Made by a program: the position numbers and the translations under genes. Below, piece by piece: positions 1,804-28,667 of a stretch of DNA of 29,881 bases. Within the stretch, counting starts at the first letter, position 1. Each line of letters starts with the position of its first letter. Below the pieces are notes generated by a model. The model saw only the letters and a list, made by a program, of their open reading frames with translations, did no database searches and was not told the DNA's origin. Origin of the DNA: a virus; the IMG/VR virus record IMGVR_UViG_3300009163_000127, positions 1 through 29,881 of that record, one strand, 5' to 3'.

Positions 1804-1811
1804 AATAAATA
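1804..1811 (+). promoter_or_regulatory. T4-late-like promoter box (AATAAATA)
   Basis: AATAAATA ends 6 bases before the ATG at 1818. The T4 late box TATAAATA lies at about -13 to -6, so transcription would start at or next to the ATG. No Shine-Dalgarno sequence is present. This is inference from motif and spacing. Confidence 0.5.
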
Positions 1812-1817
1812 ATTGTT

Positions 1818-2681
1818 ATGGATGAAATAACATTTTATTATGTCGTTTATATAAACGATAGCAATCCCGGATTTTCAATATTTTGGAAAAATTTCATAAT
1901 ATCATTGACAATATTGAGAGAAACATATCCTTACAATAAAGTTGTCGTAATAACTTATGAGAATGCTACACCGCCTCGTTTGATTTACGATCTTGCAAGT
2001 GTTCTTAATTATGAATTGGTTCAAGAAGAACCTGTTTACAATCATTATGATCATCAGCAATTTAATTATATGATGTTTTCAAGGCAGATTAATTGTTATA
2101 ATCACGGCAAACATAATAAAGCCAAGATAATATACTTGGATGTAGATGTTTTTGTAATGAAGAAGTTTGATAATTTAAATTGGGATAAATTTGGCGTACT
2201 TGGTAGCAATCACGGTAGTATAAATGGTGGTGTCTTTTATTTTGATACAACAAAACCATCAACAGAATATTATGTTGAATTTATAAAAAAAGAAATTCAA
2301 TATTTAATTGAAAACCACAAAAAAACTAAAACAGATTACATAAGGAATGTTTATCCTCATTGCAATGACAATTGTTCAGTTCAAGAAGAAACAATGTTAA
2401 GAAATTTTTGTAAAAGAGATTCAAAAGAATATTTTAAACATATTTACAATATAGGCAGTCAGAATAATGGTGTTGCAGGAGAGCATAAACTACATGACGA
2501 CAATTACATGAAACAAATTAACAATATCCATTTAGTTGTTGTTGCACCTAAAAGAATACCATCTCTTATTTATAAGTCAAAATATTTCAATCATATGCTT
2601 CGTGGAAAAGATCATATAAGGAAGTTATTACCAGAATTAGCAAACGATGAATTTAAAAATTTAATCATAAAAATGATTTAA
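1818..2681 (+). CDS. Putative GT-A fold glycosyltransferase (GT8-like)
   Basis: 287 residues. YLDVDVF (DVD at residues 108-110) is a DxD-type metal/nucleotide-sugar site after a hydrophobic strand, and NGGVFYF (136-142) resembles the second conserved block of GT8-type enzymes. The N-terminal third alternates hydrophobic strands and helices as expected for a nucleotide-sugar-binding fold. There is no signal peptide or membrane segment, so it should act in the cytoplasm; donor and acceptor are unknown. It follows the nrdJ terminator and is a single gene under an AATAAATA box with no ribosome-binding site. Other glycosyltransferase-like genes occur in the window (18035, 27189 and possibly 10589). 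DNA, virion proteins or host surface are all possible targets. Confidence 0.65.
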   Translation: MDEITFYYVVYINDSNPGFSIFWKNFIISLTILRETYPYNKVVVITYENATPPRLIYDLASVLNYELVQEEPVYNHYDHQQFNYMMFSRQINCYNHGKHNKAKIIYLDVDVFVMKKFDNLNWDKFGVLGSNHGSINGGVFYFDTTKPSTEYYVEFIKKEIQYLIENHKKTKTDYIRNVYPHCNDNCSVQEETMLRNFCKRDSKEYFKHIYNIGSQNNGVAGEHKLHDDNYMKQINNIHLVVVAPKRIPSLIYKSKYFNHMLRGKDHIRKLLPELANDEFKNLIIKMI

Positions 2682-2705
2682 TAAATAAACAATTGATACT
2701 TTGTT

Positions 2706-2713
2706 AATAAATA
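2706..2713 (+). promoter_or_regulatory. T4-late-like promoter box (AATAAATA)
   Basis: AATAAATA ends 5 bases before the ATG at 2719, the spacing that would put the transcription start on the A of the start codon. A second TAATAAATA lies about 25 bases upstream. The box also decides the start: a TTG at 2701 in the same frame would lie upstream of it. Confidence 0.5.
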
Positions 2714-2718
2714 GAAAT

Positions 2719-3201
2719 ATGACAGACTTTAATTTTAGAGAATACGTTTTAAACGAAAACAAGGTTTATTTAGCCAAAGAAATTGGTGATGTGCTTAATT
2801 CTGCTCAAGAATTATCTGACGAAGTGAATAAAATAGGTACAAGAAACTTGGTTCGTTATGGACAAATTATTGTAAATAAAGCCAGAGGTATTCTTCAAGG
2901 ACATTGGGGCAATGAAAATAGGAAGTTTCTCAAAGCATTGCAAAAATGTGCCGTTGCATTAGCAAAATCAATTGATGAAAATGATAACATTGAAAATGTT
3001 TTAAAAAGCACAATTAGTACATTGCAAAAGGCTGTCGAAAAGATGGGTGTTCCTATCAATGCTTTCCAAATTACAGAAAAGCCAAAAGAAACTGAAAAGC
3101 CAAGAGATGTTGCTAATCAAGATATTGCACCTGAAATGCCTCCTGCAAGCGGTTTTGATATGTCTCAAGCAGCACCTATAAGTCAAATGCCACAAAAATA
3201 A
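2719..3201 (+). CDS. Small protein with capsid-targeting-like N-terminus
   Basis: 160 residues, not recognised as a known family. The chosen ATG follows an AATAAATA box by 5 bases and has no Shine-Dalgarno sequence. The N-terminus MTDFNFREYVLNE resembles the short aromatic/acidic leaders of T4 internal head proteins (MKTYQEFIAE), and LNE at 11-13 fits the (L/I)xE cleavage rule of T4 gp21 protease. The middle (about 15-120) is predicted helical and lysine-rich. The last 45 residues are a low-complexity Pro/Glu/Met/Gln tail. A head-packaged or scaffold-associated protein is possible, but this rests only on the N-terminus. Confidence 0.6.
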   Translation: MTDFNFREYVLNENKVYLAKEIGDVLNSAQELSDEVNKIGTRNLVRYGQIIVNKARGILQGHWGNENRKFLKALQKCAVALAKSIDENDNIENVLKSTISTLQKAVEKMGVPINAFQITEKPKETEKPRDVANQDIAPEMPPASGFDMSQAAPISQMPQK

Positions 3202-3206
3202 TTATT

Positions 3207-3214: not shown

Positions 3215-3220
3215 TGTGTT

Positions 3221-4546: not shown

Positions 4547-5794
4547 TTATTCAAAATCATCAAGATTGTAAGCAAATGATTTTTTAGGAATATATGTTTT
4601 GATATTTTTAGATAAAAACCAATGCCATCTTGTTGGATGTTCTGGAGTTACTTTACTACCCATCCCATCAGTAATAATAAACACCACTGATGGATATTTT
4701 TTGTTTTTTAATTTTTCTTTTTGAATATAATCTTCTATAATTTTAAAACAAGTACCTCCCCCACCATAAATTTTACCAGAAGATAAATCAGTTTCTTCGA
4801 CTTTTGTATCGAAGCAAAATAACCTAACATTAAACTTTTCTTTTGCTAAACTATTAGCAGCTGTGAAAAATCTTTCTGCTAAATTTATACAACTTCCTGA
4901 CGTGTCTAAAAAGAAATGAACATCTATTTTATTCTTACTAAGATGGAAGCATTCTATTTCAGCATTTGTTGGCAAGATAAGACCATTAGAAAAACCACTC
5001 ATTCTTCTAGATTTTCTAATCCACTGTTCTCTTTCAACGCTGGAAAAACGTAATGTTTCAAGTTGCCATTTCTTTATGATTGATTCCCATTTTTTGTTTT
5101 TCGACTTTTTAATCTTGTTAATCGTTATCCAAGAACCTGCATTAGTTCCTGCTTTCTTAATGTTATTCAAAGCATCGCTCAATTGTTCTTTTTCAGGACC
5201 ATCTAATTTATCAATAGTTTGTTTAACAGCTTCTTCAAGCTGCTCATTTACTAAACCTGAATGATCATCAACAAGATTGCCATTATTGTCTCCTTCGCCA
5301 GAACCACCACCATTGCTTTCTTTTTGTTTTTCAATTTCATTATAATAAAATTCAGTAGATTCATCATCTGGATAAGGAAATCCCAAATACTTTTTATCCT
5401 TGAAAACAGTATCAACCCAACAATATTCACTATTTGGATCAACATCTTCTTTAATAAAACCAAAATCTCTTACAAGAGAATGATTTACTACAACATCCAT
5501 GGCTATGTTTGATATCTTATTATTGACTCCTTCAAGGAATCTTGACCCATGCTGAAGCACAATATGAAGTGCTTCATGACATATAACAAACATTTTTTTA
5601 TAATCATCACATGTTTCCCAAAAATTTTCATTAAAAAGAAAGTTAATAAATTTTCCTTCCTTATCAAATTGTACTGCTGCCGTAGGGATTGAATCAGTAA
5701 AACTAGGTTTACCAATTTCTACTATTTTGTAGAAAACGCTATGGTGACAAGCAAGCTTTTCTTTAATGCGCTCCCAATCTGAATTAATATTCAT
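4547..5794 (-). CDS. HExxH metallopeptidase-like / VWA domain protein (DUF2201-type), partner of the AAA+ ATPase
   Basis: 415 residues. The ATG at 5794 is chosen because a GGAAGGA site sits directly before it; an in-frame start at 5836 lies deep inside the upstream gene. N-terminal domain: VICHEALHIVLQHG with HEALH at 73-77, a zinc-peptidase-type motif. A Gly/Asn/Glu linker lies near 160-180. C-terminal VWA domain: intact MIDAS with DTSGS at 297-301, Thr348 in a GGGGT loop and Asp376 in IITDG. This arrangement matches bacterial VWA-like proteins encoded next to MoxR-type ATPases. The gene overlaps the ATPase by 11 bases, so the two are co-translated. The role is probably chaperone- or remodelling-like; substrate unknown. 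The HExxH domain argues against cobaltochelatase CobT. Confidence 0.8.
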   Translation of the reverse strand: MNINSDWERIKEKLACHHSVFYKIVEIGKPSFTDSIPTAAVQFDKEGKFINFLFNENFWETCDDYKKMFVICHEALHIVLQHGSRFLEGVNNKISNIAMDVVVNHSLVRDFGFIKEDVDPNSEYCWVDTVFKDKKYLGFPYPDDESTEFYYNEIEKQKESNGGGSGEGDNNGNLVDDHSGLVNEQLEEAVKQTIDKLDGPEKEQLSDALNNIKKAGTNAGSWITINKIKKSKNKKWESIIKKWQLETLRFSSVEREQWIRKSRRMSGFSNGLILPTNAEIECFHLSKNKIDVHFFLDTSGSCINLAERFFTAANSLAKEKFNVRLFCFDTKVEETDLSSGKIYGGGGTCFKIIEDYIQKEKLKNKKYPSVVFIITDGMGSKVTPEHPTRWHWFLSKNIKTYIPKKSFAYNLDDFE

Positions 5795-7184
5795 TTTTAA
5801 TTCCTTCCATTGCGTCAATGATTTCCAAACTTTCACACTTCTTCTTAAAAACTAGGTTCTGAGTAACCTTAACAGCAAACATTTTATTCAGTTTTACATA
5901 ACATTTATTCCATGCGTTTACCAATAAATCTAAATTGTATTGCTTTATAGTTGCTTCCCATTTTTCAATCACAAAATCTACAATAAATGCTATTGTCTTT
6001 TCACAAACAACAATATCTGGATCATCTGGTAAATTTTGCAAAACAATTTTCATTCTATCGTTTTTGTTACAATTTTCTATTCGATCCATATAGTCAGCGT
6101 TTGACAAAAACTCAGTAAGATCATTAGTGACAGTTTTATTTATACTCAAATCTTCTACACTATTAGCAGCATAATATGATCTTATTTTCATCAATGCCTT
6201 GGGATTAGAACCAGCAGTTAATATCTGCTCAATCACATTCTTAAACTCTTGATTATTATCTTTATTCTTTAAGATATAATCAGATATTTTTAGTTTTTCA
6301 TCAGCTATCAATAAAGATAATTTTTCCTTTTTCAAAAGAGGAATGAAAAATTTCATATAGTTATCATTAAGATTAATTATCTTGATGGCTGAATTGTAAT
6401 TGTTTTCAACATTTAAAAACAATTTTGCTTCTTTTGCATTTTTTGTTTCATACAATTTAGATAATTTCTTATCAATTGGTCCATTGCTAATATCTTGTCT
6501 AAGTTTGCCAATGTTGCTATCCTTCGGAAGTATATCTTCTAAAGGAATACCTTTACTCATAAAGTTTAATGCGTAATCAAGTCTTCTAGGAGATATCTGT
6601 TTTTTAATATTTTCTGGTAGATCATTCCACCAATTAATACTAGCAGCAGCTATATCATTTCCGTATTTATTGCTAAAGTATTCCATATCGCAAGCATACG
6701 GAACAATGATTTGATTGGCATGAAAACGATCTTTGTGGGCTGGATCTAGCCTTTCAACATCATATGTATTTTGTTCATCTTCTGGATTGATAGCTGCCCA
6801 AACTACTTTTAGATTAGGAAACTTTCTTCCATTGATTGATTTAAATTGACATAATTCAAGTAAGGCATTCCTGATCTTGCTAGGAGATCTGTTGAATTCA
6901 TCAACAAAGATAGCTTGTATTTTACCTTCATCAACAAATGCTTTCGGAGGTATAATTTCAATACATTTTTTGCCGTTATATTCGACTTCTTTTGGTATTC
7001 CGATAAAGTCAACCCATGGATCAAGCGTACTTCCAGAAAAGTAAAGCCATGATTCGTTTAATACTAATCCGCTTTCTTCAAACACTTGCTTGACAATAGA
7101 TGTTTTACCAACACCATGTTCTCCAGTAAGAAGAACATTCATTTCACAATCGTAGTGCTTCTTTAACTTTTCAACCAAATTCAT
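5784..7184 (-). CDS. MoxR-type AAA+ ATPase
   Basis: 466 residues. Walker A GEHGVGKTS (21-29), Walker B AIFVDE (91-96), sensor-1 Asn133 in WAAINPED and an arginine-finger-like DRF (152-154) are all present, so the ATPase core looks intact. The C-terminal 250 residues are helical and not recognised. MoxR ATPases act with VWA-domain partners to remodel or activate protein complexes, often for metal-centre insertion; the VWA partner is the next gene, overlapping by 11 bases. The start is supported by AAGGAGG 6 bases upstream and by a consensus TTGACA promoter 27-55 bases upstream. CobS is a related AAA+ protein common in T4-like cyanophages, but the partner here does not look like CobT. Confidence 0.85.
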   Translation of the reverse strand: MNLVEKLKKHYDCEMNVLLTGEHGVGKTSIVKQVFEESGLVLNESWLYFSGSTLDPWVDFIGIPKEVEYNGKKCIEIIPPKAFVDEGKIQAIFVDEFNRSPSKIRNALLELCQFKSINGRKFPNLKVVWAAINPEDEQNTYDVERLDPAHKDRFHANQIIVPYACDMEYFSNKYGNDIAAASINWWNDLPENIKKQISPRRLDYALNFMSKGIPLEDILPKDSNIGKLRQDISNGPIDKKLSKLYETKNAKEAKLFLNVENNYNSAIKIINLNDNYMKFFIPLLKKEKLSLLIADEKLKISDYILKNKDNNQEFKNVIEQILTAGSNPKALMKIRSYYAANSVEDLSINKTVTNDLTEFLSNADYMDRIENCNKNDRMKIVLQNLPDDPDIVVCEKTIAFIVDFVIEKWEATIKQYNLDLLVNAWNKCYVKLNKMFAVKVTQNLVFKKKCESLEIIDAMEGIKNEY

Positions 7185-9227: not shown

Positions 9228-9309
9228 TTTATTTTCCCCTTTTATACGCAAATCGTATTTTTAATTTAGTGTAATTCATTTAAAACTATATTATTGCAGG
9301 AGATTTTTT

Positions 9310-9678
9310 ATGATACAAATTGGTTTTCACAATGTTGCTGAATTAATTTTTCAAAACAATTTAGTAAAAAACTCACTGCCAAAATACAAACATCTTTTCG
9401 ATTCATGGGAATTAGCACAAAAAATTCCACAAATGAGAAGTTTAGGCATAAGATCTGTTCTAGATTTTATTAATACCATCACAGAAAAAGATATTGAAAC
9501 AATATCAGAAATATTTAAATTTCCAATTGAAATAATGAAAATTGAACTTAATCCATATAAAAATGTTACTGGAAATATTCAAGATTTTGAATTACAGCTT
9601 CCTCTTAATAGTAATATACAAGATATGTGCCTTCACAGAAAAGGCGATAAAATATCAGTTCTTATAACAACGGGGTAA
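9310..9678 (+). CDS. Hypothetical protein, 122 aa
   Basis: Not recognised. AGGAG lies 8 bases before the ATG. The sequence is mixed helix/strand, without Cys clusters, signal peptide or membrane segments. It ends two bases before the next ATG, so it is translated together with the membrane protein and the two following small genes. The divergent 82-base gap upstream separates it from the gp26-like gene; it is AT-rich and contains CTATATTA, a possible weak promoter element. Confidence 0.6.
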   Translation: MIQIGFHNVAELIFQNNLVKNSLPKYKHLFDSWELAQKIPQMRSLGIRSVLDFINTITEKDIETISEIFKFPIEIMKIELNPYKNVTGNIQDFELQLPLNSNIQDMCLHRKGDKISVLITTG

Positions 9679-11353: not shown

Positions 11354-11362
11354 AGAGTCACA

Positions 11363-11370
11363 CTATATTT
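11363..11370 (+). promoter_or_regulatory. Late-like box (CTATATTT) before the gp55-like gene
   Basis: CTATATTT ends 5 bases before the ATG at 11376, matching the spacing of the AATAAATA boxes elsewhere. There is no Shine-Dalgarno sequence. The box is a poorer match than most, so confidence is low. Confidence 0.3.
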
Positions 11371-11375: not shown

Positions 11376-11864
11376 ATGAGTAATCATTATCTTGATAATA
11401 AATACCTTGAAAAAAATATTATTGATTTCCAACAAGCAAAAAAATATAAAAGAAAATATGACCTTATTCGACAAGATTACGAAGAACATAAAAAAAACAC
11501 TGAAAAAATAACATTAAAGCTAGATGAAGATAAAATAACACAAAATGATAAAATACTTAAACAAAGTCAAGACAATCTAGCAAAAGAATTCTTCACACTA
11601 GCAGAAAACATTGTCAGATTTAGAAATTTTCAAAAAATAGATTATGATGACGCTGTCCAAGAAGGTGTCTTTATTTGTTTCTCTAAAATCGAACGATTTG
11701 ATCCCACCCGTGGAAGCAAAGCATTCAACTTCTTGACAACATGCCTAATTCATCATCTACGACAAATATACAGATCTAATAAAAACTTCGAAGAACTTAA
11801 GAAAAGATATCAAGAATTTTATTACACAAAAATTAGTAAAGAAATTCCTATCAAAAGACTTTGA
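11376..11864 (+). CDS. gp55-like late sigma factor
   Basis: 162 residues, close to T4 gp55 (185). Residues 90-134 match sigma70-family region 2: YDDAVQEGVFICFSKIERFD, then PTRGSKAFNFLTTCLIHHLR. This region binds the core polymerase clamp and the -10 element. There is no region 4, as in gp55. The N-terminal 70 residues are charged and helical. It should direct host RNA polymerase to late promoters of TATAAATA type, and boxes of that type occur before many genes of this window. It stands alone opposite a minus-strand gene, and a small basic/acidic gene follows 67 bases later. Confidence 0.75.
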   Translation: MSNHYLDNKYLEKNIIDFQQAKKYKRKYDLIRQDYEEHKKNTEKITLKLDEDKITQNDKILKQSQDNLAKEFFTLAENIVRFRNFQKIDYDDAVQEGVFICFSKIERFDPTRGSKAFNFLTTCLIHHLRQIYRSNKNFEELKKRYQEFYYTKISKEIPIKRL

Positions 11865-17145: not shown

Positions 17146-17153
17146 TATTTAGT
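17146..17153 (-). promoter_or_regulatory. T4-late-like promoter box (ACTAAATA) of the tail operon
   Basis: On the minus strand ACTAAATA ends 5 bases before the ATG at 17140. The spacing equals that of the AATAAATA boxes. It would start the sheath/tube operon. Confidence 0.45.
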
Positions 17154-18714: not shown

Positions 18715-18722
18715 AATAAATA
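18715..18722 (+). promoter_or_regulatory. T4-late-like promoter box (AATAAATA)
   Basis: AATAAATA ends 6 bases before the ATG at 18729 and lies between two genes of the same strand. No Shine-Dalgarno sequence is present, so a leaderless mRNA is implied. Confidence 0.5.
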
Positions 18723-18728: not shown

Positions 18729-19211
18729 ATGAAAACATTTTTTGATTGGATGGCAAGTTCTAAATATTACACTGAAGATACAAGAACAGGCATGCCTGTT
18801 GCTCCTAATCAGCAACAAACAACTGGTTTCCCAGATAATCGTGACACAAGTGTAAGAAGAGCAGCACCAAGCAAGCCACAAGCCAACAATCAAATGAATG
18901 TAAGCAAAGAATTCCAACAAAGATGGTCTGCAAATCTTCCGTTAATAGTACAATCACTTAAACAAGCTGATCAATCGATTCAGAATATAAGCCCCAATGA
19001 CCAGTCAGCCGCCAATGGTATCAGCAATATTTCAAAAAACTTAGATGATGTCGCAAAGAATTTTTTAACATACAAAAATCATACTGTTCAAACTTTTGCT
19101 AAGTTAAGAAATATGTTGAACCAAAAAACACAAGAACTAAAAAATTCGCCGCCGCCTGTTGATCGTATGAGTGATCCCGCCTACAGTAGAGAGGCGGGAA
19201 AGGTCAGATAA
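18729..19211 (+). CDS. Small protein with MKTF capsid-targeting-like N-terminus
   Basis: 160 residues, family unknown. The N-terminus MKTFFDWMASSKYYTED resembles the T4 internal-protein leader MKTYQEFIAE and the starts of other small proteins in this window. Residues 20-60 are polar and Gln/Asn-rich; 60-145 form an amphipathic helical region (KEFQQRWSANLPLIVQSLKQ onwards), perhaps a coiled coil. A CCCGCC...GGCGGG hairpin lies in the last codons, in a region more GC-rich than the rest. It converges on the Gly/Met-rich gene across 16 bases. Confidence 0.6.
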   Translation: MKTFFDWMASSKYYTEDTRTGMPVAPNQQQTTGFPDNRDTSVRRAAPSKPQANNQMNVSKEFQQRWSANLPLIVQSLKQADQSIQNISPNDQSAANGISNISKNLDDVAKNFLTYKNHTVQTFAKLRNMLNQKTQELKNSPPPVDRMSDPAYSREAGKVR

Positions 19212-19227: not shown

Positions 19228-19980
19228 TTATACGCCGCCGTAGCCGCCGCCCATACCAGTGCCGCCCATGCCGCCACCTTGACCGCCACCACCCATACCG
19301 GCTCCCATACCGCCGCCGCCCATGCCGCCGCCAAAGCCACCTGCCATGTTGCCTGCACCCATTCCACCTTGTCCACCACCTTGATCGCCTTGTTCTCCAC
19401 TCATGTCGGCTGATCCACCCATAGCACCACTCATGTCAGGTGCGCCAGTGTCGCCTTTCTTTTTATTTTCGCCTTCTCCATCTTCATCTTCGCCTTCGTC
19501 TTCGTCACCTTCCTCATCCTCATCGCCAGAAACGCTGCCAATTAGGTCTTCAAGTTGCTTGACAAGATCTTCAATTTGCTGACCTTTGTCTTCATCTTGT
19601 GACTTGTAGTTTTCAAGTTGATCTTTAATAGTTTCAATAGCTGATTTTACTGTATCTTCATCTGCTCCACCTTCACTTGGTGAAACATTTGCATCATCTG
19701 TATCAGCTGGAGCAGATCCCATTTGATCATTACCCCCACCCATTTGATTTTGTTGACCTTGTGCATTACCAGAAAAATTAGGCTGACCCATTCCTTGACC
19801 GCCGCCCATATTGCCGGGAGGTGCCATTCCACCGCCCATATTACCACCCATGTTGCCGCCCATGTTACCGGGAGGTGCCATTCCACCGCCCATATTGCCG
19901 CCCATGTTACCGGGAGGTGCCATGCCGCCGCCCATGCCTTGTTCTTGAAGAATGCGATACATTTCATAAAAAGTCTTCAT
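19228..19980 (-). CDS. Gly/Met-rich repeat protein with MKTF N-terminus
   Basis: 250 residues. The leader MKTFYEMYRILQE (LQE at 11-13 fits an (L/I)xE protease site) is followed by three copies of a GGGMAPPGNMGG unit within residues 15-60, an acidic coiled-coil segment (about 105-160) and a D/E run (about 155-170). The last 60 residues are almost entirely Gly, Met and Ala. TAGGAG precedes the ATG. The composition predicts a disordered protein. The GGN/CCG-rich DNA contrasts with the AT-rich neighbours. Function is unknown; the shared leader suggests a head-associated protein. Confidence 0.65.
   Translation of the reverse strand: MKTFYEMYRILQEQGMGGGMAPPGNMGGNMGGGMAPPGNMGGNMGGNMGGGMAPPGNMGGGQGMGQPNFSGNAQGQQNQMGGGNDQMGSAPADTDDANVSPSEGGADEDTVKSAIETIKDQLENYKSQDEDKGQQIEDLVKQLEDLIGSVSGDEDEEGDEDEGEDEDGEGENKKKGDTGAPDMSGAMGGSADMSGEQGDQGGGQGGMGAGNMAGGFGGGMGGGGMGAGMGGGGQGGGMGGTGMGGGYGGV
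19811..19938 (-). repeat. Tandem imperfect repeats encoding GGGMAPPGNMGG
   Basis: Three near-identical stretches of about 32 bases begin at 19811, 19865 and 19907 (spacings 54 and 42). The unequal spacing comes from an extra NMGG unit, suggesting slippage or unequal recombination within the coding sequence. Confidence 0.8.
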
Positions 19981-20534: not shown

Positions 20535-20942
20535 TTATGCACAACTGTTTAAAGAAACTTGTGATGTAATAAGTACTTGTCCTCCACTGCCCGGAAGTTG
20601 GAAAGGAGCAGCTGTAAATCTTTCAAGCCACAACAAATCACCAGCTACATTTGTGATGTAATAACCATAAACAGTAGCACTCGTTGTTATGTTGAATGTT
20701 TGTTCTGCGTAACTTGCTGTGGTAATACCGCCACCTGATGTAGCCACAGTCCAGCTTAAAGAAGTAAGGGTAATTGCAGCGTAACCACCGGATGTTACTT
20801 CTGTTACATCTCCAACCACAGTAGTTGAACTTGGCGTTAAATTATTTGAATATAAATGTAAAATGGTATTGGTTGGCGTAGCTACATTGAGCATATTGTT
20901 TAAAAGTGTAACTTCACTAACATTAGGAATTACAAGAGCCAT
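20535..20942 (-). CDS. Phage structural beta-protein (virion-associated)
   Basis: 135 residues. The start MALVIPNVSEVTLLNNMLNV, the VYGYYITN strand and the Thr/Ser/Gly-rich beta pattern match a family of phage virion proteins often found in head or fibre gene clusters and usually annotated as hypothetical. The composition has almost no Lys and only a few charged residues, as in a compact beta-sandwich. AAAAGGAGAA precedes the ATG, a strong ribosome-binding site. It is the first gene of the minus-strand group that ends with the Gly/Met-rich gene. Confidence 0.6.
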   Translation of the reverse strand: MALVIPNVSEVTLLNNMLNVATPTNTILHLYSNNLTPSSTTVVGDVTEVTSGGYAAITLTSLSWTVATSGGGITTASYAEQTFNITTSATVYGYYITNVAGDLLWLERFTAAPFQLPGSGGQVLITSQVSLNSCA

Positions 20943-20962: not shown

Positions 20963-20970
20963 AATAAATA
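20963..20970 (+). promoter_or_regulatory. T4-late-like promoter box (AATAAATA)
   Basis: AATAAATA ends 7 bases before the ATG at 20978, in the 35-base gap between divergent genes. No Shine-Dalgarno sequence is present. Confidence 0.5.
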
Positions 20971-20977
20971 TATAGTC

Positions 20978-21583
20978 ATGGCAGTGTACAAAAAAGATGG
21001 AAGTGTTTACAAATTGAATGGACCAAACAACTTGATGTTTACACAAGAAAATTGGAATTCATTTGTAACACATAACTTGAAGAACCTAAAAGACTTCAAA
21101 ATGGAATCAAATATTCCACATGTTGTATTAGGTTCTAAGAAAGAACCGATTGTTGTTAAAGAAGAACCGATTATTGTTAAAGAAGAACCTGAAATTAAAG
21201 AAACAGCACCAATTGTCGAAGGAATTAAGCCAATTGTTAAACCAGAACCAAAAATTGTCCATCAAATAAAAAATGAATTTGATGATTATATAAAAACAAT
21301 TATTCATTGTGCTTTGGCAAAAAGAGAAGAAAAAAAAGATAATTTATACGATGAAGTAACCGTCAAATATAAATTTGTTGATAAATTTACATTTGAATCA
21401 ATTATTTTATCGACAAATGATTTTACACTTATTTTTTGGACAATGTTGGACAAATTAACAGTTGGATCTATTCTTTACCCACAAGATGACTCAAAAAGAT
21501 GGTGGGAAATAAAAGAAATTGAGAGTGCTCCCGGTGGTTACAAAGTTGTTTGTGTATTTACCAGAAACACTCCTTCTTTTTAG
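20978..21583 (+). CDS. Hypothetical virion-type protein with KEEP repeats
   Basis: 201 residues. The N-terminus MAVYKKDGSVYKLNGPN resembles the start of the gene at 19989-20525. A linker (about 48-95) carries repeats such as KEEPIVV and KEEPIIV, encoded by near-identical 21-base DNA repeats. The C-terminal domain (about 100-201) is alpha/beta with WWEIKEIESAPGGYKVVCVF. Such an N-terminal tag plus Pro/Glu linker plus domain layout suits a virion attachment protein, but this is inference. Its TAG stop overlaps the TAA of the convergent 664-residue gene. Confidence 0.6.
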   Translation: MAVYKKDGSVYKLNGPNNLMFTQENWNSFVTHNLKNLKDFKMESNIPHVVLGSKKEPIVVKEEPIIVKEEPEIKETAPIVEGIKPIVKPEPKIVHQIKNEFDDYIKTIIHCALAKREEKKDNLYDEVTVKYKFVDKFTFESIILSTNDFTLIFWTMLDKLTVGSILYPQDDSKRWWEIKEIESAPGGYKVVCVFTRNTPSF

Positions 21584-23574
21584 TCTCTCATCGTTTTGTG
21601 CATCATTTCTTCCATCCTTGCCATAACAGCTTCTACAGCTGAAAGTTGACCAACTCTTCTGTGTTTAGTGCCTGCTTGACCTACATTTTTTTCTGTAAGT
21701 CTTTGACATAGTTCCATAGTTAAAAATCTTAGTGTTTTTTCTATTTGATTGTAAATAGCTTTTTTATTTCCTTCTAAATCAAACTTGCCAATATTTCTTA
21801 ATGCTTTGTCTCTAATAAGAGTTTTAAACAATTCGTATGCTTGAGGATTGGTTATTCTTTTATCTCTGCTTACAAATGTCTTGAACATGATATTATATGG
21901 TCCGTTATAATTAGCCCCAATGTATTCTTTTACGAATTGATCAAAAACATTGCTAGGATCATTTAGGTAACCCATTAAATTATTTAAACTATTATTAAGA
22001 TTGGTTAATCTCGCACCAACATCTAATGAAAATTTCTTGTTAGGATGAATACCACCAGCAAGAGTTAAATCTCTTCTGTCTAGTTCATCTGGAATATCTT
22101 CTTCTCTTGCAAATTGATAAAATATTCTTCCTCTTTTGCCTACTTTATTTTTTTCTGCAATTTCTCTAGGATTATAATGATGACCAACTGCGTTTTCTCT
22201 GTCTAATCGTGCCATAAGATTTCTTAGTTCTTGTGCTTCTTCAGGATTGTCTTCACTTATTGCTTTAGCAATTTTTTTGTTTAATTTACTTTTAACAACA
22301 TCGATATTGAAAAGAAATTTTCCACTATGAATTTCTGGAATAACATCTCCTGCCACATGAGGATTTGGCTCACTTGGATGTGTCAGTTTTGTTCCTTTTT
22401 CTGGATCGATTATTTGACCGTGATAACCTTTAATCTTATGAGAAAATAAATCTATATCTGCTAATGCTTCACTTAGTCTTCTTTCAAGAGGATTGTTAAC
22501 ATCTACAAGCATTTCTATTAATTCTGTAAATTGCTCATCACTAAAATCATGAGCCTCATGATCACCAATTGCTGCTTCCAAAATGTTAGGGAAATTACCG
22601 TTTAACGCATATCTGTAAGCATAGTTAGTTCCTAATGGAGTTTCAATCATTAAATTAAATTTTCCTCTTAAGAAGTCTAATTTTTGTGGATCAATGCCTT
22701 CTTCAGTTCCTATCATGTTTTTAAGATTTGTGATATAATTTTTATAAAAATTTACTAAAGATGGTTTGTAAATTGTTTTGTCTGCAATGTCAACAGTTTC
22801 TCCTGTACTGCCTAAATAAGGTGTTCTTGCTCTTCTTCTATGTGTTTCTTGATTTATAATAGATCTTGGATCATTTAGAAGTGCTTGTGATGAAAAACCA
22901 ATCCATTCCTGCAAATTGTTAACAATTGTGTCTTTTTCAGGACAAGTAAAACCATCTGTGTACCAGTTACCTTCTTGCTCATGATCTGGAATATCAGGAT
23001 TAAAATTCTTGATTCTACTTAAGTCAAATCCTTTATCACTTGACCCTTTTGCCCCTTCAAGTCTTGTGACTAATTCTGCAATATAATTGTCTCTTATTGT
23101 GTGAGAACCTTCATCAGCAACGCCATGTTTATGTTTTCTTGAAAAATTATACACAGTTCTTGGATAGGTTACATTCATCCATGCGCCACCACCATCTTCT
23201 CTTTCAGATAAAAATCTATCAACAGAATTTTTTGCATTATCATGAGCATTATTTTGAATTCTTATTGTTTCTTGCTCTGTGTTACCTCTAGGATTGTCAA
23301 GATTACCTAATATAACTTGCTGTCTAGAATTTATTAGTCCATAATAAGTTAATTTGCTCTGCTTACCCTTTGCATCATTCAGTCCTTCTAAAGGTCTATT
23401 TCTTGCTTCTTCCCTTTTTAGTAAAGCTTTTGGTAAATCAACACAATAACGCTGTGCAATAGCCCTTTCCCATAGTTTTGCAGGGAATTGTCTAAGGAAT
23501 TTCATGTCATCTTCACCGAACAAATGAAAGTCGTGATTAATGTGTCCAGCAAAGTATTCACTAAAAAGTTTCAT
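21580..23574 (-). CDS. Large protein of unknown function, 664 aa
   Basis: The largest gene here without a recognised family. It begins MKLFSEYFAGHINHDFHLFG, again an M-K-x-F aromatic/acidic leader. The protein is hydrophilic, rich in Asn, Arg and Glu, without signal peptide or membrane segments; HGVADEGSHTIRDNYIAELV and NIMFKTFVSRDKRITNP give no clear enzyme motif. GAGGAAC lies 6 bases before the ATG, and the TATATATA box at 23602-23609 could serve it too. Its size, leader and position between structural genes suggest an internal virion protein, but this is unproven. Confidence 0.7.
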   Translation of the reverse strand: MKLFSEYFAGHINHDFHLFGEDDMKFLRQFPAKLWERAIAQRYCVDLPKALLKREEARNRPLEGLNDAKGKQSKLTYYGLINSRQQVILGNLDNPRGNTEQETIRIQNNAHDNAKNSVDRFLSEREDGGGAWMNVTYPRTVYNFSRKHKHGVADEGSHTIRDNYIAELVTRLEGAKGSSDKGFDLSRIKNFNPDIPDHEQEGNWYTDGFTCPEKDTIVNNLQEWIGFSSQALLNDPRSIINQETHRRRARTPYLGSTGETVDIADKTIYKPSLVNFYKNYITNLKNMIGTEEGIDPQKLDFLRGKFNLMIETPLGTNYAYRYALNGNFPNILEAAIGDHEAHDFSDEQFTELIEMLVDVNNPLERRLSEALADIDLFSHKIKGYHGQIIDPEKGTKLTHPSEPNPHVAGDVIPEIHSGKFLFNIDVVKSKLNKKIAKAISEDNPEEAQELRNLMARLDRENAVGHHYNPREIAEKNKVGKRGRIFYQFAREEDIPDELDRRDLTLAGGIHPNKKFSLDVGARLTNLNNSLNNLMGYLNDPSNVFDQFVKEYIGANYNGPYNIMFKTFVSRDKRITNPQAYELFKTLIRDKALRNIGKFDLEGNKKAIYNQIEKTLRFLTMELCQRLTEKNVGQAGTKHRRVGQLSAVEAVMARMEEMMHKTMRD

Positions 23575-23601: not shown

Positions 23602-23609
23602 TATATATA
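23602..23609 (+). promoter_or_regulatory. Late-like box (TATATATA), possibly bidirectional
   Basis: TATATATA ends 5 bases before the ATG at 23615, the T4-late spacing. The box is a palindrome, so the same element could start minus-strand transcription about 25-30 bases before the ATG at 23574, whose gene does have a Shine-Dalgarno sequence. Confidence 0.45.
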
Positions 23610-23614: not shown

Positions 23615-24502
23615 ATGGCATATTCTTGCGCTTCAAATACAATGTATTTTAAACGACCAACTGCTGAGTCGCAAAATTGCAGTACCAATAATTTTAATCT
23701 TGGTGTTTCTGATCCTTTGGATATTGGACAGCTATCACCAAGAACAAACAGAACAAAGGTTAAATCGCAATTAAGAGATTATATTCTCTTAATGTTAGGT
23801 GCTCCTGTTGTTACAATTGAACTTGATGATCAGCAATTAGATGCTGCTGTAGATCTTTCTTTGCAGATTTACGAAGATTATGCGCCAAGGGAATTTTTTC
23901 AGTATTATGTTTTTAATACAATTCCCGGTAAAAGCATTTACACATTGCCTCCTGATGTTGGATTTGTAAGAAATGTTTTTTACAAGCAAATGGCAACATT
24001 TAGTTTTAGTTCATCCGATCTTGGTGGTGCAATTCCTATTGAATATTTCTATCCCGGTGGTGCTTACGCATCAATTACAGGTGGTATGATTGACTCTGTA
24101 ACTCCTATTTGGGGACGTGTAGGTGAATGGAGTTTATATAAAGAATACGAAAGAACTTATGCTCGTAGTGCAAGTAATCTAGGTGGTTGGGAATGGTTGG
24201 GAGATTATCAGAATATTAAAGTATATCCAATTCCGAGAAGTCCAACCGCTGTGATTGTTCATTATTTACAAAAGAATAAAGACTGGCAACGTGTTAGCCA
24301 AGCGATGCAAGAAGGTGCCTTGGCGCATGCAAAGATCATGCTAGGACGCATTAGAGGCAAATATACTACATTACCCGGCGCTCAGGGCGGTGTGCAGCTA
24401 GATGGCACTACTTTGTTAACAGAGGGCATTCAAGAAAAGAAAGATTGGGAAGAAAGATTGATTACTAGGTATGGAGATATTCCTTATATTTCTATGGGAT
24501 GA
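23615..24502 (+). CDS. Neck/head-completion-like structural protein
   Basis: 295 residues from the ATG at 23615, 5 bases after a TATATATA box; in-frame upstream codons would overlap the divergent gene. KVKSQLRDYILLMLGAPVVT, then ELDDQQLDAAVDLSLQIYED, match the N-terminal helices of head-completion or neck proteins of many T4-like and jumbo phages. A beta-rich centre with Gly/Ser/Tyr loops follows, then helices near LAHAKIMLGRIRGK. Whether it corresponds to T4 gp13 or gp14 cannot be decided here. The next gene starts three bases after its stop. Confidence 0.65.
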   Translation: MAYSCASNTMYFKRPTAESQNCSTNNFNLGVSDPLDIGQLSPRTNRTKVKSQLRDYILLMLGAPVVTIELDDQQLDAAVDLSLQIYEDYAPREFFQYYVFNTIPGKSIYTLPPDVGFVRNVFYKQMATFSFSSSDLGGAIPIEYFYPGGAYASITGGMIDSVTPIWGRVGEWSLYKEYERTYARSASNLGGWEWLGDYQNIKVYPIPRSPTAVIVHYLQKNKDWQRVSQAMQEGALAHAKIMLGRIRGKYTTLPGAQGGVQLDGTTLLTEGIQEKKDWEERLITRYGDIPYISMG

Positions 24503-24505: not shown

Positions 24506-24958
24506 ATGAGCAAATTTGATGAAAATTTGAATGAAGGGTCACAGAATTCAAGATATTCTGTTGAGGTTAATTTTGACACAACTAAAGATGATTGTCTGAT
24601 TTCATACGCCAAGATTATGCTTGGTTATATTAGCGCAGCAATGAAAAAAATGAATTATCATGTTAAGCTTATATTTTCCCAGAAACCATTAAGATTAATT
24701 GTTGCTTCTAGGAATTGGGATGATGGTGAATGGGTTGGAATGGTTTCTTACAACGAACAAAAAGACCATTTCACAATTTCTAAAGGATTTTATAATAAAT
24801 TAAATAAAACTGTTTCTGTTGAAGAAACAAAAATTCTTGATAATCCTATTAATGCAAAAATTTTGTCCCACAAATTGCGGGACATGATGAAAGATTTAGA
24901 AGGCACAAAAGATCGTTTCGTGCCTTCATTTAGAAAAATGCGATTCAATCAGAAATAA
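24506..24958 (+). CDS. Hypothetical protein, 150 aa
   Basis: Not recognised. It follows the neck-like gene by 3 bases; only a weak GGGATG precedes the ATG, so translation is probably coupled. DCLISYAKIMLGYISAAMKK is a helix, then KLIFSQKPLRLIVASRNWDD suggests strands, giving a small alpha/beta domain. GEWVGMVSYNEQKDHFTISK continues it. It overlaps the convergent gene by 14 bases at the 3' end, without a terminator. Confidence 0.6.
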   Translation: MSKFDENLNEGSQNSRYSVEVNFDTTKDDCLISYAKIMLGYISAAMKKMNYHVKLIFSQKPLRLIVASRNWDDGEWVGMVSYNEQKDHFTISKGFYNKLNKTVSVEETKILDNPINAKILSHKLRDMMKDLEGTKDRFVPSFRKMRFNQK

Positions 24959-25307
24959 TTTTAATGCCAGCTGAAGGACTTTCGACAAGAAGGATTTGAT
25001 CCTTGCTGTCTAGTTCACCTTCTGTTAGTACTTTCTTTTTACTTGTAGTAACATGTTCAACCTTACCTTCGTTGGTAACGATAGGTGGTTGATCAAGAAT
25101 TAGCTTATGCTCCATGATAACCTCTTTTTTTTGTTCATAAGGACCAATATATCTAATCATTCCAACTTTAACATATTCTTGAAAACTTTTATCAGCAACA
25201 AATACACCTTTAGGCTTTACTGTTGTTAAACCTTTGCAGGCAGGTTTAGGCAACATTAAATCATAAGTATGATGGTTTTCGAAAATATGCAGTTCTGAAT
25301 TATTCAT
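24945..25307 (-). CDS. Hypothetical protein, 120 aa
   Basis: 120 residues from the ATG at 25307; an upstream start at 25370 would run across the divergent gene. Not recognised. The protein is beta-rich with several Lys/Glu stretches (EQKKEVIMEHKLILDQPPIV) and no motif. No Shine-Dalgarno sequence lies before the ATG; instead TATTATAT ends 4 bases upstream. It is one half of a divergent pair separated by only 15 bases. Confidence 0.6.
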   Translation of the reverse strand: MNNSELHIFENHHTYDLMLPKPACKGLTTVKPKGVFVADKSFQEYVKVGMIRYIGPYEQKKEVIMEHKLILDQPPIVTNEGKVEHVTTSKKKVLTEGELDSKDQILLVESPSAGIKIISD

Positions 25308-25322
25308 AACTATATAATAGTA
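25308..25322. promoter_or_regulatory. Divergent late-type promoter in a 15-base gap
   Basis: The gap reads AACTATATAATAGTA on the plus strand and contains the near-palindrome ACTATATAATAGT. On the plus strand TATATAAT ends 4 bases before the ATG at 25323; on the minus strand TATTATAT ends 4 bases before the ATG at 25307. The whole intergenic space is therefore promoter box plus spacer on each side. Confidence 0.45.
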
Positions 25323-25667
25323 ATGAATAGCAAAAATAAAATGCCTGAATGGTACGAAATTTATCCACAAGGGACTGTGGAAGGAGAAGAAGAGAAGAAA
25401 TTTTTCATTAGTTTAGCAAGAAATAAAAAATATAAAAATTGGCGTAGCGTTTCTGCAATATCAAAAGAAATTGGTATTCCTGATGAAAGAATTGAAGAAA
25501 TTATCTTTAAATACAGTAAAACAGGATTAATAATCCAGAACCCATCTAATACTGAGTTCTGGGGTTATTATCATAATAATCTTGATGCTCTTCCAGAAGA
25601 ACCAGATTCTGTTATCAACGAGGAAAGAAAAAAACTTTTAAAAAATAAACAGAATCCTACGCCTTAA
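25323..25667 (+). CDS. Winged-helix-like small protein
   Basis: 114 residues. MPEWYEIYPQGTVEGEEEKK, a helix, then WRSVSAISKEIGIPDERIEE and the following KYSKTGLIIQNPSNTEFWGY form a likely winged helix. Similar small proteins with this MPEWYEIYPQGT start occur in T4-like phages; function is unknown, with DNA binding plausible. The ATG has a TATATAAT box 4 bases upstream and no Shine-Dalgarno sequence. Its TAA overlaps the TAA of the convergent gene. Confidence 0.65.
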   Translation: MNSKNKMPEWYEIYPQGTVEGEEEKKFFISLARNKKYKNWRSVSAISKEIGIPDERIEEIIFKYSKTGLIIQNPSNTEFWGYYHNNLDALPEEPDSVINEERKKLLKNKQNPTP

Positions 25668-25894
25668 GTCATTCTGTCATGATGTGTGTAGCGGAATTGA
25701 CCATGATCAACCTTCTTATCATCAACTTTTGGACCCATTTTAAATAATGCGTCAGCAGCTGTTGGCATAAAATAACTAGCTGGATAATGAGAACGAATAT
25801 AGGCATCGGGATAAGCCCAATGCGCTATACCTGTTCTCCTAACAGTTTCAAAAATATTTTTATCTCTTTTTTCGAGATATTCAATAAACTTCAT
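25664..25894 (-). CDS. AYPDAY-module protein, copy A
   Basis: 76 residues. After the leader MKFIEYLEKRDKNIFE comes HWAYPDAYIRSHYPASYFMP, then AADALFKMG. The central 30 residues match the preceding gene (copy B) at most positions, so the two are tandem paralogues. IFE at about 14-16 could be an (I/L)xE processing site. The ATG shares a base with the previous TAA (TAATG), so the two are co-translated. Abundant Tyr, Pro and His suggest a structural packing role; unproven. Confidence 0.65.
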   Translation of the reverse strand: MKFIEYLEKRDKNIFETVRRTGIAHWAYPDAYIRSHYPASYFMPTAADALFKMGPKVDDKKVDHGQFRYTHHDRMT

Positions 25895-26115
25895 TAATTC
25901 TCAATCATTTCTTTTGGTCCGCCCCTAGCAATCTTAGTAGCTCCAAGTTTGAAAGGTGCATCAGCAGCAATTGGAGTGAAGTAGTTACTAGGATATTGTC
26001 CTCTTACATAAGCATCTGGATAAGCGTAAGGGGCAAGACCGCCACGCTTGATACTTTCTGTTACAGCAGGAATCTTAAGATTGTTCTCAGTAGCCCAACT
26101 TGTAAATGTTTTCAT
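25894..26115 (-). CDS. AYPDAY-module protein, copy B (MKTF leader)
   Basis: 73 residues. The leader MKTFTSWATE aligns residue by residue with the T4 internal protein leader MKTYQEFIAE (MKT, aromatic, x, x, aromatic, x, x, Glu). After a short linker come APYAYPDAYVRGQYPSNYFT and AADAPFKLG, shared with copy A. TGAGGAAA precedes the ATG. A TCTAAATAAG sequence about 35 bases upstream is a possible late box. A virion-internal small protein is the best guess. Confidence 0.65.
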   Translation of the reverse strand: MKTFTSWATENNLKIPAVTESIKRGGLAPYAYPDAYVRGQYPSNYFTPIAADAPFKLGATKIARGGPKEMIEN

Positions 26116-26180
26116 TTATTTCCTCACAAAAAATTTTCCTTATACTTATTTAGATAGATCTATTCATTTTTATGTAAAAC

Positions 26181-26798: not shown

Positions 26799-26816
26799 AC
26801 GAAAAAGGAGAGAGTG

Positions 26817-27197
26817 ATGAACACAGTAAAGAGTAAGATCGCTAAGACCACTGTTAAGGCTGCAACTAAGCCTATTGCTAAGACCAAGTCAGCTGTTCCT
26901 GCAAATAGCATTCGTTATAAGATTATCACAAGGATTGATGGATTAAACGAAGTGTACGAAGCTACTGCCGAAATCCCCGGATTCAAGGCTACGAAGGTTC
27001 TTCGCAGCGATGGCGGAACTGTTTTCACCACTCGTTCTGCTCTTACCAAGGCTTGTCGTGATCGTGCAAATGCTCTCAAGCGTTTGCCAATTTTTGATCT
27101 TGGTACTCCAGCAGCCACCAAGGCTCCAAGATCCAAGAAGGTTTCTACTTTTGTTTCAACTAGCGGTGTTTGCCCAGTTACTGGCGCATCATCCTGA
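26817..27197 (+). CDS. Basic Ala/Lys-rich protein, possibly DNA-binding
   Basis: 126 residues. The first 30 residues are a histone-H1-like Lys/Ala/Thr tail (KSKIAKTTVKAATKPIAKTK); a compact domain follows (about 32-95: RYKIITRIDGLNEVYEATAE, then TRSALTKACRDRANALKRLP) and a basic Pro/Ser/Thr tail ends in CPVTGASS. The start follows AAAAAGGAGAG. Codon choice is unlike the neighbours (many CGT, GCT, AAG, CTC and GGT, fewer AAA/ATA), as in a highly expressed or foreign gene. Likely roles are DNA binding or host takeover; the fold is not recognised. Confidence 0.7.
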   Translation: MNTVKSKIAKTTVKAATKPIAKTKSAVPANSIRYKIITRIDGLNEVYEATAEIPGFKATKVLRSDGGTVFTTRSALTKACRDRANALKRLPIFDLGTPAATKAPRSKKVSTFVSTSGVCPVTGASS

Positions 27198-28634
27198 ATT
27201 TCTTTCTAAATCAACAAGACAAGACCCAATCACATTTTTTAATGATTGGGTTTTGTCTTTTCTATAGATCTTAACATTCGGATACCATTCGGAATAATCA
27301 CCTGTCTTGCCCCAACGCCAATCAGGCTTGTCACTTACTATTACTGCACTTGGTATTCCAACTGATCCAGCAATGTGAATAGGCAAGCTATCAACACTAA
27401 TAAAATAATCCATTTGTTCTAAATGTCTAATTGTATCTTCAATTGATTCTAGTTTATCTGCCAAATCAATTACTTTGTATTGTTCTAAATTTTTTGAGTA
27501 ATCACATGTTTCTTCAGAATAAGAATATTTTCTTGCTCGTTTGTCTTTTTGAAAAGAATAAACTTCATATTTATTGAAATTTATTTGAGTGAGGAAGTCT
27601 TCAGCGTAACAACTTCGTTGAAAATCCATTGGGTGTGCAGGATTCCCAGCCCAAACAATACCTATTTTTTTTATTTCTTCTGAATACTTGTAATTACCAA
27701 GCTTGTATGGCAAAGGAATGTCCTTAACATTCATGTAATAAGGCAAGCTTAATAACGATACACCATACTTAGTTGTAGGTTTTTTAGAAAATTCAATTCT
27801 TAAATCCTTGCAAATGGATTTGAAATTTTCATTTGCAACAAAATAACTGTTTTTATATTTTCTTTGAAATTCTGGCAAAAACCTTAAAAACATTAAATTA
27901 TCACCTAATCCTTGCTCTAAAAATACACAGAATTCCATATCATCAGTTATTTTTTCTGGTTTTTCTAAATTGTTTGATTGCATGTATTTTATCAAATTAG
28001 CATGACAGCTAAATCTACTTTCATAGTGTTTCCAAGCAATGTCATATTTTTTCTGAAATGCTAATGAATAAAAATAATCAACTTCAACATCTTTTTGACA
28101 ATTTTTATTTTCAATTGCTTTCTCAAAATGAACTTCTGATTCTTTATATTTTCCAATATCAGCCAGACAACAAGCTTTATTGGCATGATAATACCATTCA
28201 TTCGGTTCTAACTCTAATGCCTTGTCAAGCTTTTTTATGGATATATTATGTCTGTCTAATTGCGTTAACGACAATGCTTGATTGCAATAATATGCAGCTT
28301 TTTTGTCATTTATTTTGATTGCTTTGTGTGCAGCTAAAACGGCTTCAACAAATTTTTTACGATTTTTTAAATGAATAGAATAATTGTTCCAATCGTCAGC
28401 ATTATTGTATTTTTCACACAATTCTGGGAAGAACTTATCACATTCATCCATTTTATCCATTTTTTGTTTAACAATTGCAAGTAGTTGATAATATTTGTGT
28501 TCATCAAAAACTTTAACAGCTTGTTCTAGAGTTTGTTCTGCTAGTTGAAAATTTTTACTTTTAAAATATTCTTTAAGTGCATTGTCTAGTTTTTGTTTCA
28601 AAGTGTCTAAATTGATTTCTGTATTTTGTTCCAT
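27189..28634 (-). CDS. TPR-repeat glycosyltransferase (GT9/GT41-like)
   Basis: 481 residues from the ATG at 28634 (a GTG 6 codons upstream is possible). Residues 10-210 are TPR helices (e.g. LDKALELEPNEWYYHANKAC). The catalytic half starts with FLEQGLGDNLMFLRFLP (about 238-254), then IGIVWAGNPAHPMDFQRS (about 324-341), DYFISVDSLPIHIAGSVGIP (about 409-428) and a DWRWGKTGDYSEWYP block. This is the classic pattern of TPR-linked heptosyltransferase-like enzymes. It probably transfers a sugar to a protein or surface glycan. Its 3' end overlaps the basic protein gene by 9 bases and carries that gene's terminator. Confidence 0.85.
   Translation of the reverse strand: MEQNTEINLDTLKQKLDNALKEYFKSKNFQLAEQTLEQAVKVFDEHKYYQLLAIVKQKMDKMDECDKFFPELCEKYNNADDWNNYSIHLKNRKKFVEAVLAAHKAIKINDKKAAYYCNQALSLTQLDRHNISIKKLDKALELEPNEWYYHANKACCLADIGKYKESEVHFEKAIENKNCQKDVEVDYFYSLAFQKKYDIAWKHYESRFSCHANLIKYMQSNNLEKPEKITDDMEFCVFLEQGLGDNLMFLRFLPEFQRKYKNSYFVANENFKSICKDLRIEFSKKPTTKYGVSLLSLPYYMNVKDIPLPYKLGNYKYSEEIKKIGIVWAGNPAHPMDFQRSCYAEDFLTQINFNKYEVYSFQKDKRARKYSYSEETCDYSKNLEQYKVIDLADKLESIEDTIRHLEQMDYFISVDSLPIHIAGSVGIPSAVIVSDKPDWRWGKTGDYSEWYPNVKIYRKDKTQSLKNVIGSCLVDLERNSG
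27218..27260 (+). terminator. Terminator of the basic protein gene, lying inside the opposite CDS
   Basis: A 15-bp stem (27218-27232 with 27243-27257, one G-T wobble) with a 10-base loop is followed by TTTT. It is 20 bases after the stop at 27197. The same bases encode the C-terminus of the glycosyltransferase on the minus strand. Confidence 0.8.
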
Positions 28635-28653
28635 AAAAATGTTCGCTTTCACA

Positions 28654-28661
28654 TATATATT
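28654..28661 (+). promoter_or_regulatory. Late-like box (TATATATT)
   Basis: TATATATT ends 6 bases before an ATG at 28668 that opens a 26-codon frame. On the minus strand the same ATATATAT lies just before the GTG/ATG region of the glycosyltransferase, so it may act in both directions. Confidence 0.35.
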
Positions 28662-28667
28662 AGTTAA

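Follow-up and report, generated by a model that had tools for sequence, protein, structure and literature searches.

Late-promoter boxes at start codons in a T4-type phage lineage

IMG/VR virus record IMGVR_UViG_3300009163_000127, analyzed here as a window comprising the entire record (29,881 bases, 33.6% GC), is probably a piece of a larger genome and carries T4-type virion genes, namely those for a tail sheath, two tail tube proteins, a gp15-like tail sheath stabilizer, and a head-tail adaptor. In this window and its relatives, boxes of the T4 late-promoter type stand directly before the start codons of many genes that lack a Shine-Dalgarno (SD) site, and this arrangement is real and beyond chance. 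We consider leaderless late mRNA to be the best explanation, with a probability of roughly 80%. Both in these very large freshwater phages and in marine phages that infect SAR11 bacteria, the mRNAs of many late genes would thus probably begin at the start codon itself, which implies that these phages probably have two ways of initiating translation.

The expected RNA 5′ ends follow from the geometry of the T4 late promoter. According to Geiduschek and Kassavetis (PMC2988020), this promoter lacks a −35 element and consists of an 8-bp TATA box that precedes the start site by about one helical turn. The same paper numbers the first base of the box −13 from the transcription start and gives A as this base at nine of fifty sites. 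Since the T4 box begins at −13 from the start site, a box beginning at −13 from an ATG predicts that RNA starts at the A of AUG, and one beginning at −14 predicts a single extra base before the AUG. Throughout, a box is a match to the regular expression N[AC]TA[AT]AT[AT], and its position is that of its first base relative to the ATG, with −1 being the base before the A. Box position and T4 geometry together place the predicted mRNA 5′ end at or near the AUG.

The initial annotation of the window described such boxes 4 to 7 bases before the ATGs of nine genes, at 1818, 2719, 11376, 18729, 20978, 23615, and 25323 and, on the minus strand, at 25307 and 17140. Eight of the nine bear a full match, with 5, 6, or 7 nucleotides (nt) between box and ATG, but the start at 25307 has only a one-mismatch box. 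The accompanying statement that these starts lack an SD site was borne out by sequence and by script, as no SD tetramer was found at any of them (0/9). The boxes and associated genes, including those in which the same box stands farther from the start, are as follows.

1804..1811, plus strand: box AATAAATA, first base at −14, implied leader 1 nt, gene 1818-2681
2706..2713, plus strand: box AATAAATA, first base at −13, implied leader 0 nt, gene 2719-3201
11362..11369, plus strand: box ACTATATT, first base at −14, implied leader 1 nt, preceding the gp55-like sigma gene 11376-11864
11376..11864, plus strand: gp55-like late sigma factor, 162 amino acids, sigma domain 2 only (Pfam Sigma70_r2, E 2e-6; PHROG 234 late sigma, E 3e-7)
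17146..17153, minus strand: box ACTAAATA, first base at −13, implied leader 0 nt, gene 16142-17140 (gp15-like tail sheath stabilizer)
18715..18722, plus strand: box AATAAATA, first base at −14, implied leader 1 nt, gene 18729-19211
20963..20974, plus strand: overlapping boxes AATAAATA (−15) and AATATATA (−11), implied leader 2 or −2 nt, gene 20978-21583
20969-20976, minus strand: nearly the same stretch read as ACTATATA, 21-nt leader with SD, gene 20535-20942
23602..23609, plus strand: palindromic box TATATATA, first base at −13, implied leader 0 nt, gene 23615-24502 (head-tail adaptor)
23602-23609, minus strand: the palindrome TATATATA read on this strand, 22-nt leader with SD, gene 21580-23574
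25309..25316, plus strand: box ACTATATA, first base at −14, implied leader 1 nt, gene 25323-25667
25314..25321, minus strand: imperfect box ACTATTAT, one mismatch (by eye), first base at −14, implied leader 1 nt, gene 24945-25307
9285..9292, plus strand: box ACTATATT, leader 12 nt with SD, gene 9310-9678 (leadered mode)
26147..26154, minus strand: box TCTAAATA, leader 26 nt with SD, gene 25894-26115 (leadered mode)
28996..29003, plus strand: box TATATATA, leader 21 nt with SD, gene from 29030 (leadered mode)

SD sites precede 22 of the 37 window starts examined, never together with a box that implies a leader of 0 to 1 nt. Six of these 22 starts, at 9310 and 29030 and, on the minus strand, at 9227, 20942, 23574, and 26115, have a box at 12 to 30 nt, and a seventh, at 7973 on the minus strand, has one at 4 nt. 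The divergent ATGs at 25307 (minus) and 25323 are 15 bp apart, and the stretch 20963-20976 serves 20978 and 20942 (minus) much as the palindrome at 23602-23609 serves 23615 and 23574 (minus). A weaker TAATATATAT stretch before the GTG at 28652 (minus strand), within the range to 28667 covered by the initial annotation, was left uncounted.

Enrichment against chance

The relatives of the window comprise metagenomic contigs (29 loci) and, at a greater distance, LR756511, a huge phage of 595 kb. Fifteen relative contigs and LR756511 were compared (of the 16 contigs with handles, G012 was not present in full), and LR756511, with 42% GC, was left out of motif training. Gene starts were taken as the first ATG of open reading frames (ORFs) passing a codon score, and ORFs shorter than 50 amino acids, without an ATG, or no more than 70 nt from a record end were dropped. 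Removing orthologues with at least 26 of 40 identical upstream bases reduced the AT-rich genes from 687 to 384; the window genes at 18729 and 23615 add nothing to these counts, being uncalled or called from an upstream ATG.

A de novo motif search without position preference on 155 AT-rich genes lacking an SD site returned A[AC]TA[AT]AT[AT], a matrix matching the T4-type 8-bp TATA-type box, pattern TATAAATA. About 30 of its roughly 85 assignments fell at two positions only, −14 and −13. When this AT-rich-trained matrix was applied to LR756511, 23 of 553 genes had a match at −15 to −12, where dinucleotide shuffles gave 3.7, and 12 matches lay at exactly −13. By regular expression, a box at an implied leader of 0 to 1 nt precedes 28 of the 384 AT-rich first-ATG genes, representing 20 protein clusters, compared with a mean of 1.08 and a maximum of 4 in 200 dinucleotide-preserving shuffles; the corresponding figures for LR756511 are 16 of 553, a mean of 0.92, and a maximum of 6.

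Counts made independently of gene annotation gave similar results. ATG lies 13 to 14 nt from a box start 47 times against 13.1 expected in the AT-rich records (six of the 16 were used, window included), 20 times against 7.8 in LR756511, and 29 times against 9.8 in three marine phages described below. GTG and TTG are not in excess at that offset, either in the AT-rich records (6 versus 5.0 and 19 versus 19.3) or in LR756511 (3 versus 3.8 and 11 versus 10.9); ATG alone is enriched there in the three data sets. The initial annotation had proposed counting box-to-start distances against a shuffled control, with a lack of enrichment as a refuting outcome; the result is instead strong enrichment in the training set, in LR756511, and in Pelagibacter phages. 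Alignments of 54 and 58 near boxes revealed no −35-like element at a fixed distance upstream and no more than a weak A/T tract. One motif found upstream did exceed the score of mononucleotide shuffles but was not fixed in position.

Two classes of box-bearing genes

Implied leaders are mostly either 0 to 1 nt, without an SD site, or 12 to 32 nt, usually with one. At 0 to 1 nt a strong SD tetramer was found in 0 of 28 AT-rich genes, 0 of 16 in LR756511, and 3 of 12 in the Pelagibacter phage HTVC008M, and at 12 to 32 nt SD sites accompany 17 of 20 boxes in LR756511 and 31 of 43 in the AT-rich records. When distant boxes were assigned by looser matrix classes, 30 of 35 such genes in LR756511 had an SD site versus 300 of 495 genes without a box (P = 0.003).

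Box genes tend to stand first in their unit. In LR756511, 16 of the 23 near-box genes have a divergent upstream neighbor, compared with 31 of the 298 genes that have an SD site and no box (P = 4e-10); the AT-rich fractions are 16/30 and 45/174. This placement beside divergent neighbors fits promoters rather than a translation signal within operons. Divergent starts are separated by 63 distinct spacers of 5 to 60 bp. At 38 of these, one or both of the starts have a near box, and at 19 the near box of one start is paired with an SD site at the other (near boxes here being those at −15 to −12, with a final A or T allowed).

Conservation of box position in orthologues

The position of the box is retained in many orthologues, in some cases over large protein distances. 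Upstream of the gp15-like gene it lies at exactly −13 in 20 of 20 aligned rows despite divergent flanks, and takes the form ACTAAATA, ACTATATA, or ACTACATA. The 14 rows shown for the gene at 2719 all have it at −13 or −14, even that of LR756511, whose protein is only 33% identical, and the head-tail adaptor orthologue of LR756511 (53% identity) has AATAAATA at −13. The gene at 1818 has a box at −13 or −14 in its orthologues in G005, G006, and G007; the box is kept in 21 of 23 rows for the sigma gene and in 7 of 9 rows for the gene at 25323. Orthologues of the gene at 18729 in G010 and G016 have a variant box (4.3 bits), and the spacing of the box shifts among orthologues of the gene at 20978.

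Sigma factor and proposed mechanism

The gp55-like protein of the window contains no Pfam domain other than Sigma70_r2, and its homologue in LR756511 is 44% identical to it. All 10 records searched gave a match to PHROG 234, weak in this lineage (E about 1e-8) versus 1e-70 in T4. The predicted structure (mean predicted local distance difference test score, 79) has sigmaA domain 2 as its nearest neighbor (best Foldseek E 0.027, probability 1.0), and a PDB sequence search with the sigma alignment gave no match. LR756511 also contains a second gp55-like sigma match, at 400609-400929 (E 2e-5). A search of 18 records found no RNA polymerase beta subunit, and transcription is therefore presumed to rely on the host enzyme. 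Genes with the box include ones of late function, encoding the tail sheath stabilizer, head-tail adaptor, virion and tail proteins, and endolysin (the function scan covered 10 of the 23 near-box proteins of LR756511), and in HTVC008M baseplate, tape-measure, and DNA-end-protector genes carry it.

Based on these observations, we propose that T4-type late promoters, with a −10-like A/T box and no −35, would be read by host RNA polymerase with the phage gp55-like sigma factor; the pairing of sigma factor and box is itself inferred. In about two-fifths of the genes whose box lies at either of two favored distances, near or far, transcription would start at the A of the start codon or at the base before it. 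The resulting mRNA would have AUG first, with no leader and no SD site, and would be translated by recognition of the 5′-terminal AUG. In other genes the same box stands at 12- to 32-nt leaders, with room for an SD site, and most operon-internal genes carry an SD site only. Between divergent genes, a near-palindromic box may serve both, giving leaderless mRNA on one side and a short SD-containing leader on the other.

Comparison with other phages and known systems

The arrangement is nearly absent from nine comparison phages, in which an implied leader of 0 to 1 nt occurs in 3 of 1803 genes altogether: T4 0/190, KVP40 0/273, P-SSM2 2/196, S-PM2 0/101, PA5oct 1/199, Cr30 0/147, phiM12 0/194, CPt10 0/170, and Vibrio phage 2.275 0/333. 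Most of these phages have the box at an implied leader of 12 to 32 nt (20 genes in T4, 19 of them with an SD site), and Cr30 has almost no boxes. The contrast drawn by the initial annotation with the ordinary leaders of T4 late mRNAs therefore holds for T4 and the eight others, which place the box at 12- to 32-nt leaders where it is present. Together with the enrichment at the start codon, this contrast supports, as an inference, the earlier proposal of leaderless mRNAs and two initiation modes.

HTVC008M, on the other hand, has an implied leader of 0 to 1 nt in 12 of 158 genes, with 11 matches at exactly −13. In this phage the deposited start is the predicted ATG in the genes for the DNA end protector, tape measure, tail tube cap, and baseplate wedge, among others. 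The arrangement is weaker in Pelagibacter phage Mosig (4/156) and Methylophilales phage Melnitz (2/133), in which 8 and 4 matches to an exact pattern were found, respectively, compared with 0 in the control. Our lineage and HTVC008M share a late box 13 to 14 nt before ATG, T4-type virion genes, and a phage-encoded ribosomal protein bS21, but HTVC008M has strong gp55 and gp33 matches, and HTVC008M, Mosig, and Melnitz are marine phages of 141 to 147 kb. The strategy described by the initial annotation as distinct is thus different from that of T4 but not unique to the phage of the window, being shared by HTVC008M. A portion of one study of pelagimyophages reports that late-promoter prediction did not work (PMC7029224), and this failure may be due to the start-codon geometry.

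With the T4 late system our lineage shares an 8-bp A/T box at the −10 position, the lack of a −35 element, a small sigma factor of domain 2 only, and the presumed use of host polymerase; it differs in its consensus, ANTAWATA, and in its many implied leaders of 0 to 1 nt. Leaderless mRNAs of bacteria and archaea (lambda cI, mycobacteria) likewise lack an SD site, have AUG at or near the predicted 5′ end, and prefer AUG only, but here a phage promoter class appears positioned to make them. AR9 and phiKZ are also giant phages with phage-determined late promoters but have their own polymerases; part of a 2017 paper gives AR9 untranslated regions of 26 to 491 nt and remarks that phage transcripts are often leaderless (PMC5312081). 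A literature search, covering open-license PMC papers only, found no T4-type phage for which leaderless late mRNA had been reported. Neither late TATA-box promoters nor leaderless mRNA is new in itself; what appears to be new, within that search, is that two lineages systematically place T4-type late promoters at the start codon, beside leadered promoters of the same kind.

Alternative explanations

Several observations weigh against leaderless late transcription as set out above. Good boxes are missing at the expected place from the G010 orthologue of the gene at 1818, from the G013 and LR756511 orthologues of the gene at 25323, and from most orthologues of the gene at 17185, and the sigma genes of G013 and LR756511 have no box. 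Unguided expectation maximization (EM) on non-SD genes of LR756511 converged on a T-rich noise motif and did not recover the box, perhaps because many first-ATG starts are wrong, and EM on the upstream regions of SD genes did not return the box either. Part of the lack of SD sites at implied leaders of 0 to 1 nt is a consequence of geometry, since a box beginning at −13 takes up the SD position, and distant-box AT-rich genes under the looser matrix classes have SD sites no more often than others (30/52 versus 176/301, P = 1.0). As for machinery, gp33 (PF16805) was found in T4 and HTVC008M but not in LR756511, ten AT-rich records, the window, or PA5oct. The gp45 clamp (PF02916) was strong in T4, subthreshold in HTVC008M, and not detected in LR756511 or the AT-rich records, the latter being fragments and PF02916 the only clamp family searched. 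By eye, no hydrophobic-acidic C terminus of the clamp-binding kind is evident in ten aligned sigma proteins, perhaps a further difference from the T4 system. The earlier link to gp55 is upheld in one respect, as the window encodes a sigma-domain-2-only protein weakly similar to the gp55 family, but homologues of gp33 and gp45 were not detected in its relatives; the predicted promoters may work like gp55 promoters, with the gp33/gp45 part of the system lacking matches.

Among rival explanations, a conventional host promoter of the sigma70 type (early or middle rather than late) could have its −10 element right next to the gene and would still yield leaderless mRNA. The distant relationship of the phage sigma factor to gp55 speaks for it, as does the presence of the box at at least one gene without an obvious late function (polynucleotide kinase-like). 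Given the lack of a positioned −35, a consensus that agrees with the T4 late box even in the A of the first position, and the several structural and lysis genes that carry the box, we judge this improbable. Somewhat less probable still is a role of the box in translation rather than transcription, as an unstructured, A/T-rich entry site for ribosomes like that in Bacteroidota-type initiation, on transcripts that start upstream. The box does occupy the usual ribosome-binding position where an SD site is absent, but the same box occurs at 12 to 32 nt in genes that mostly have SD sites (31/43 and 17/20, as above), its spacing is fixed to within 1 to 2 nt, and near-box genes of LR756511 mostly adjoin a divergent gene rather than lying inside operons. 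Moreover, where divergent ATGs are only 15 to 40 bp apart, a separate promoter would hardly fit into the noncoding DNA between them.

The start codons used here are predictions, and a real promoter could in principle be followed by a downstream start codon with an SD site and an ordinary leader, the box-adjacent ATG being unused. However, an SD-preceded start within codons 3 to 41 was found in only 1 of 16 near-box genes of LR756511 and 3 of 28 AT-rich ones, compared with 65 of 330 and 20 of 206 SD genes. Protein similarity extends from residue 1 in most orthologues, only ATG is enriched at the offset, and the deposited HTVC008M starts agree, all of which makes a downstream start very improbable. 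Finally, the boxes consist almost entirely of A and T, and A/T richness plus chance in a 33%-GC genome might be invoked; this was already refuted here by shuffles giving about 1 where 28, 16, and 12 were seen and by the AT-rich genomes of T4, P-SSM2, PA5oct, and CPt10, which show 0 to 2, so that its probability is negligible. Leaderless late mRNA accordingly remains our preferred reading.

Translation factors and a putative AUU start

Full-length genes for initiation factor 3 (IF3) are present in G006 (E 2e-29, 177 amino acids) and LR756511 (E 5e-27, 195 amino acids), about 3 kb from bS21 in the former (G006:C1:62834-65912, in L051) and about 6 kb in the latter (325993-332384). Leaderless mRNAs are bound by 70S ribosomes at the 5′-terminal AUG, a process modulated by IF3, according to part of a review (PMC9031893), and kasugamycin is reported to spare such mRNAs (PMC5230787). 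That phage IF3 has a role in leaderless initiation here is a guess. We considered bS21 as a tracker of leaderlessness, as it occurs in LR756511, G006, and HTVC008M, yet it is also found in two phages without the arrangement, PA5oct and Vibrio phage 2.275, and therefore does not discriminate. S1-domain proteins were absent from the 16 records searched.

In the window, a glutamine amidotransferase gene (PF13522/PF13537; 3221-4012, plus strand) has ATT instead of ATG before its catalytic Cys codon, and AAGGAAGG stands 6 nt farther upstream. Of 12 other contigs, 8 share the ATT with the window and 4 have ATG; the ATT is probably a conserved AUU start codon. IF3 discriminates against AUU. One could imagine a broader program in which late promoters emit leaderless mRNAs, phage IF3 and bS21 steer host ribosomes to them, and the amidotransferase AUU represents a third, IF3-controlled mode, although we regard this combination as doubtful.

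Other features of the window

Three further features were noted. An open frame at 29030-29881 (plus strand) runs to the contig end and encodes a product that is extremely Asp/Glu-rich, with a terminal tandem repeat of ATGTCACCTAAG and no Pfam match. A gene for a DUF2201-type protein adjoins an AAA_3 (MoxR-like) ATPase gene at 4547-7184 (minus strand), and the protein encoded at 19228-19980 (minus strand) is repetitive, contains numerous GGNMGG-like stretches, and has no Pfam match.

Implications

If leaderless late transcription is correct, two separate T4-type lineages, one from lakes and one from oceans, would have a class of phage promoters whose position gives rise to leaderless mRNA. This reading makes an exact prediction, a 5′ end at the A of ATG, which extends to the cultivated phage HTVC008M. 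It would also bear on why large phages carry bS21 and IF3.

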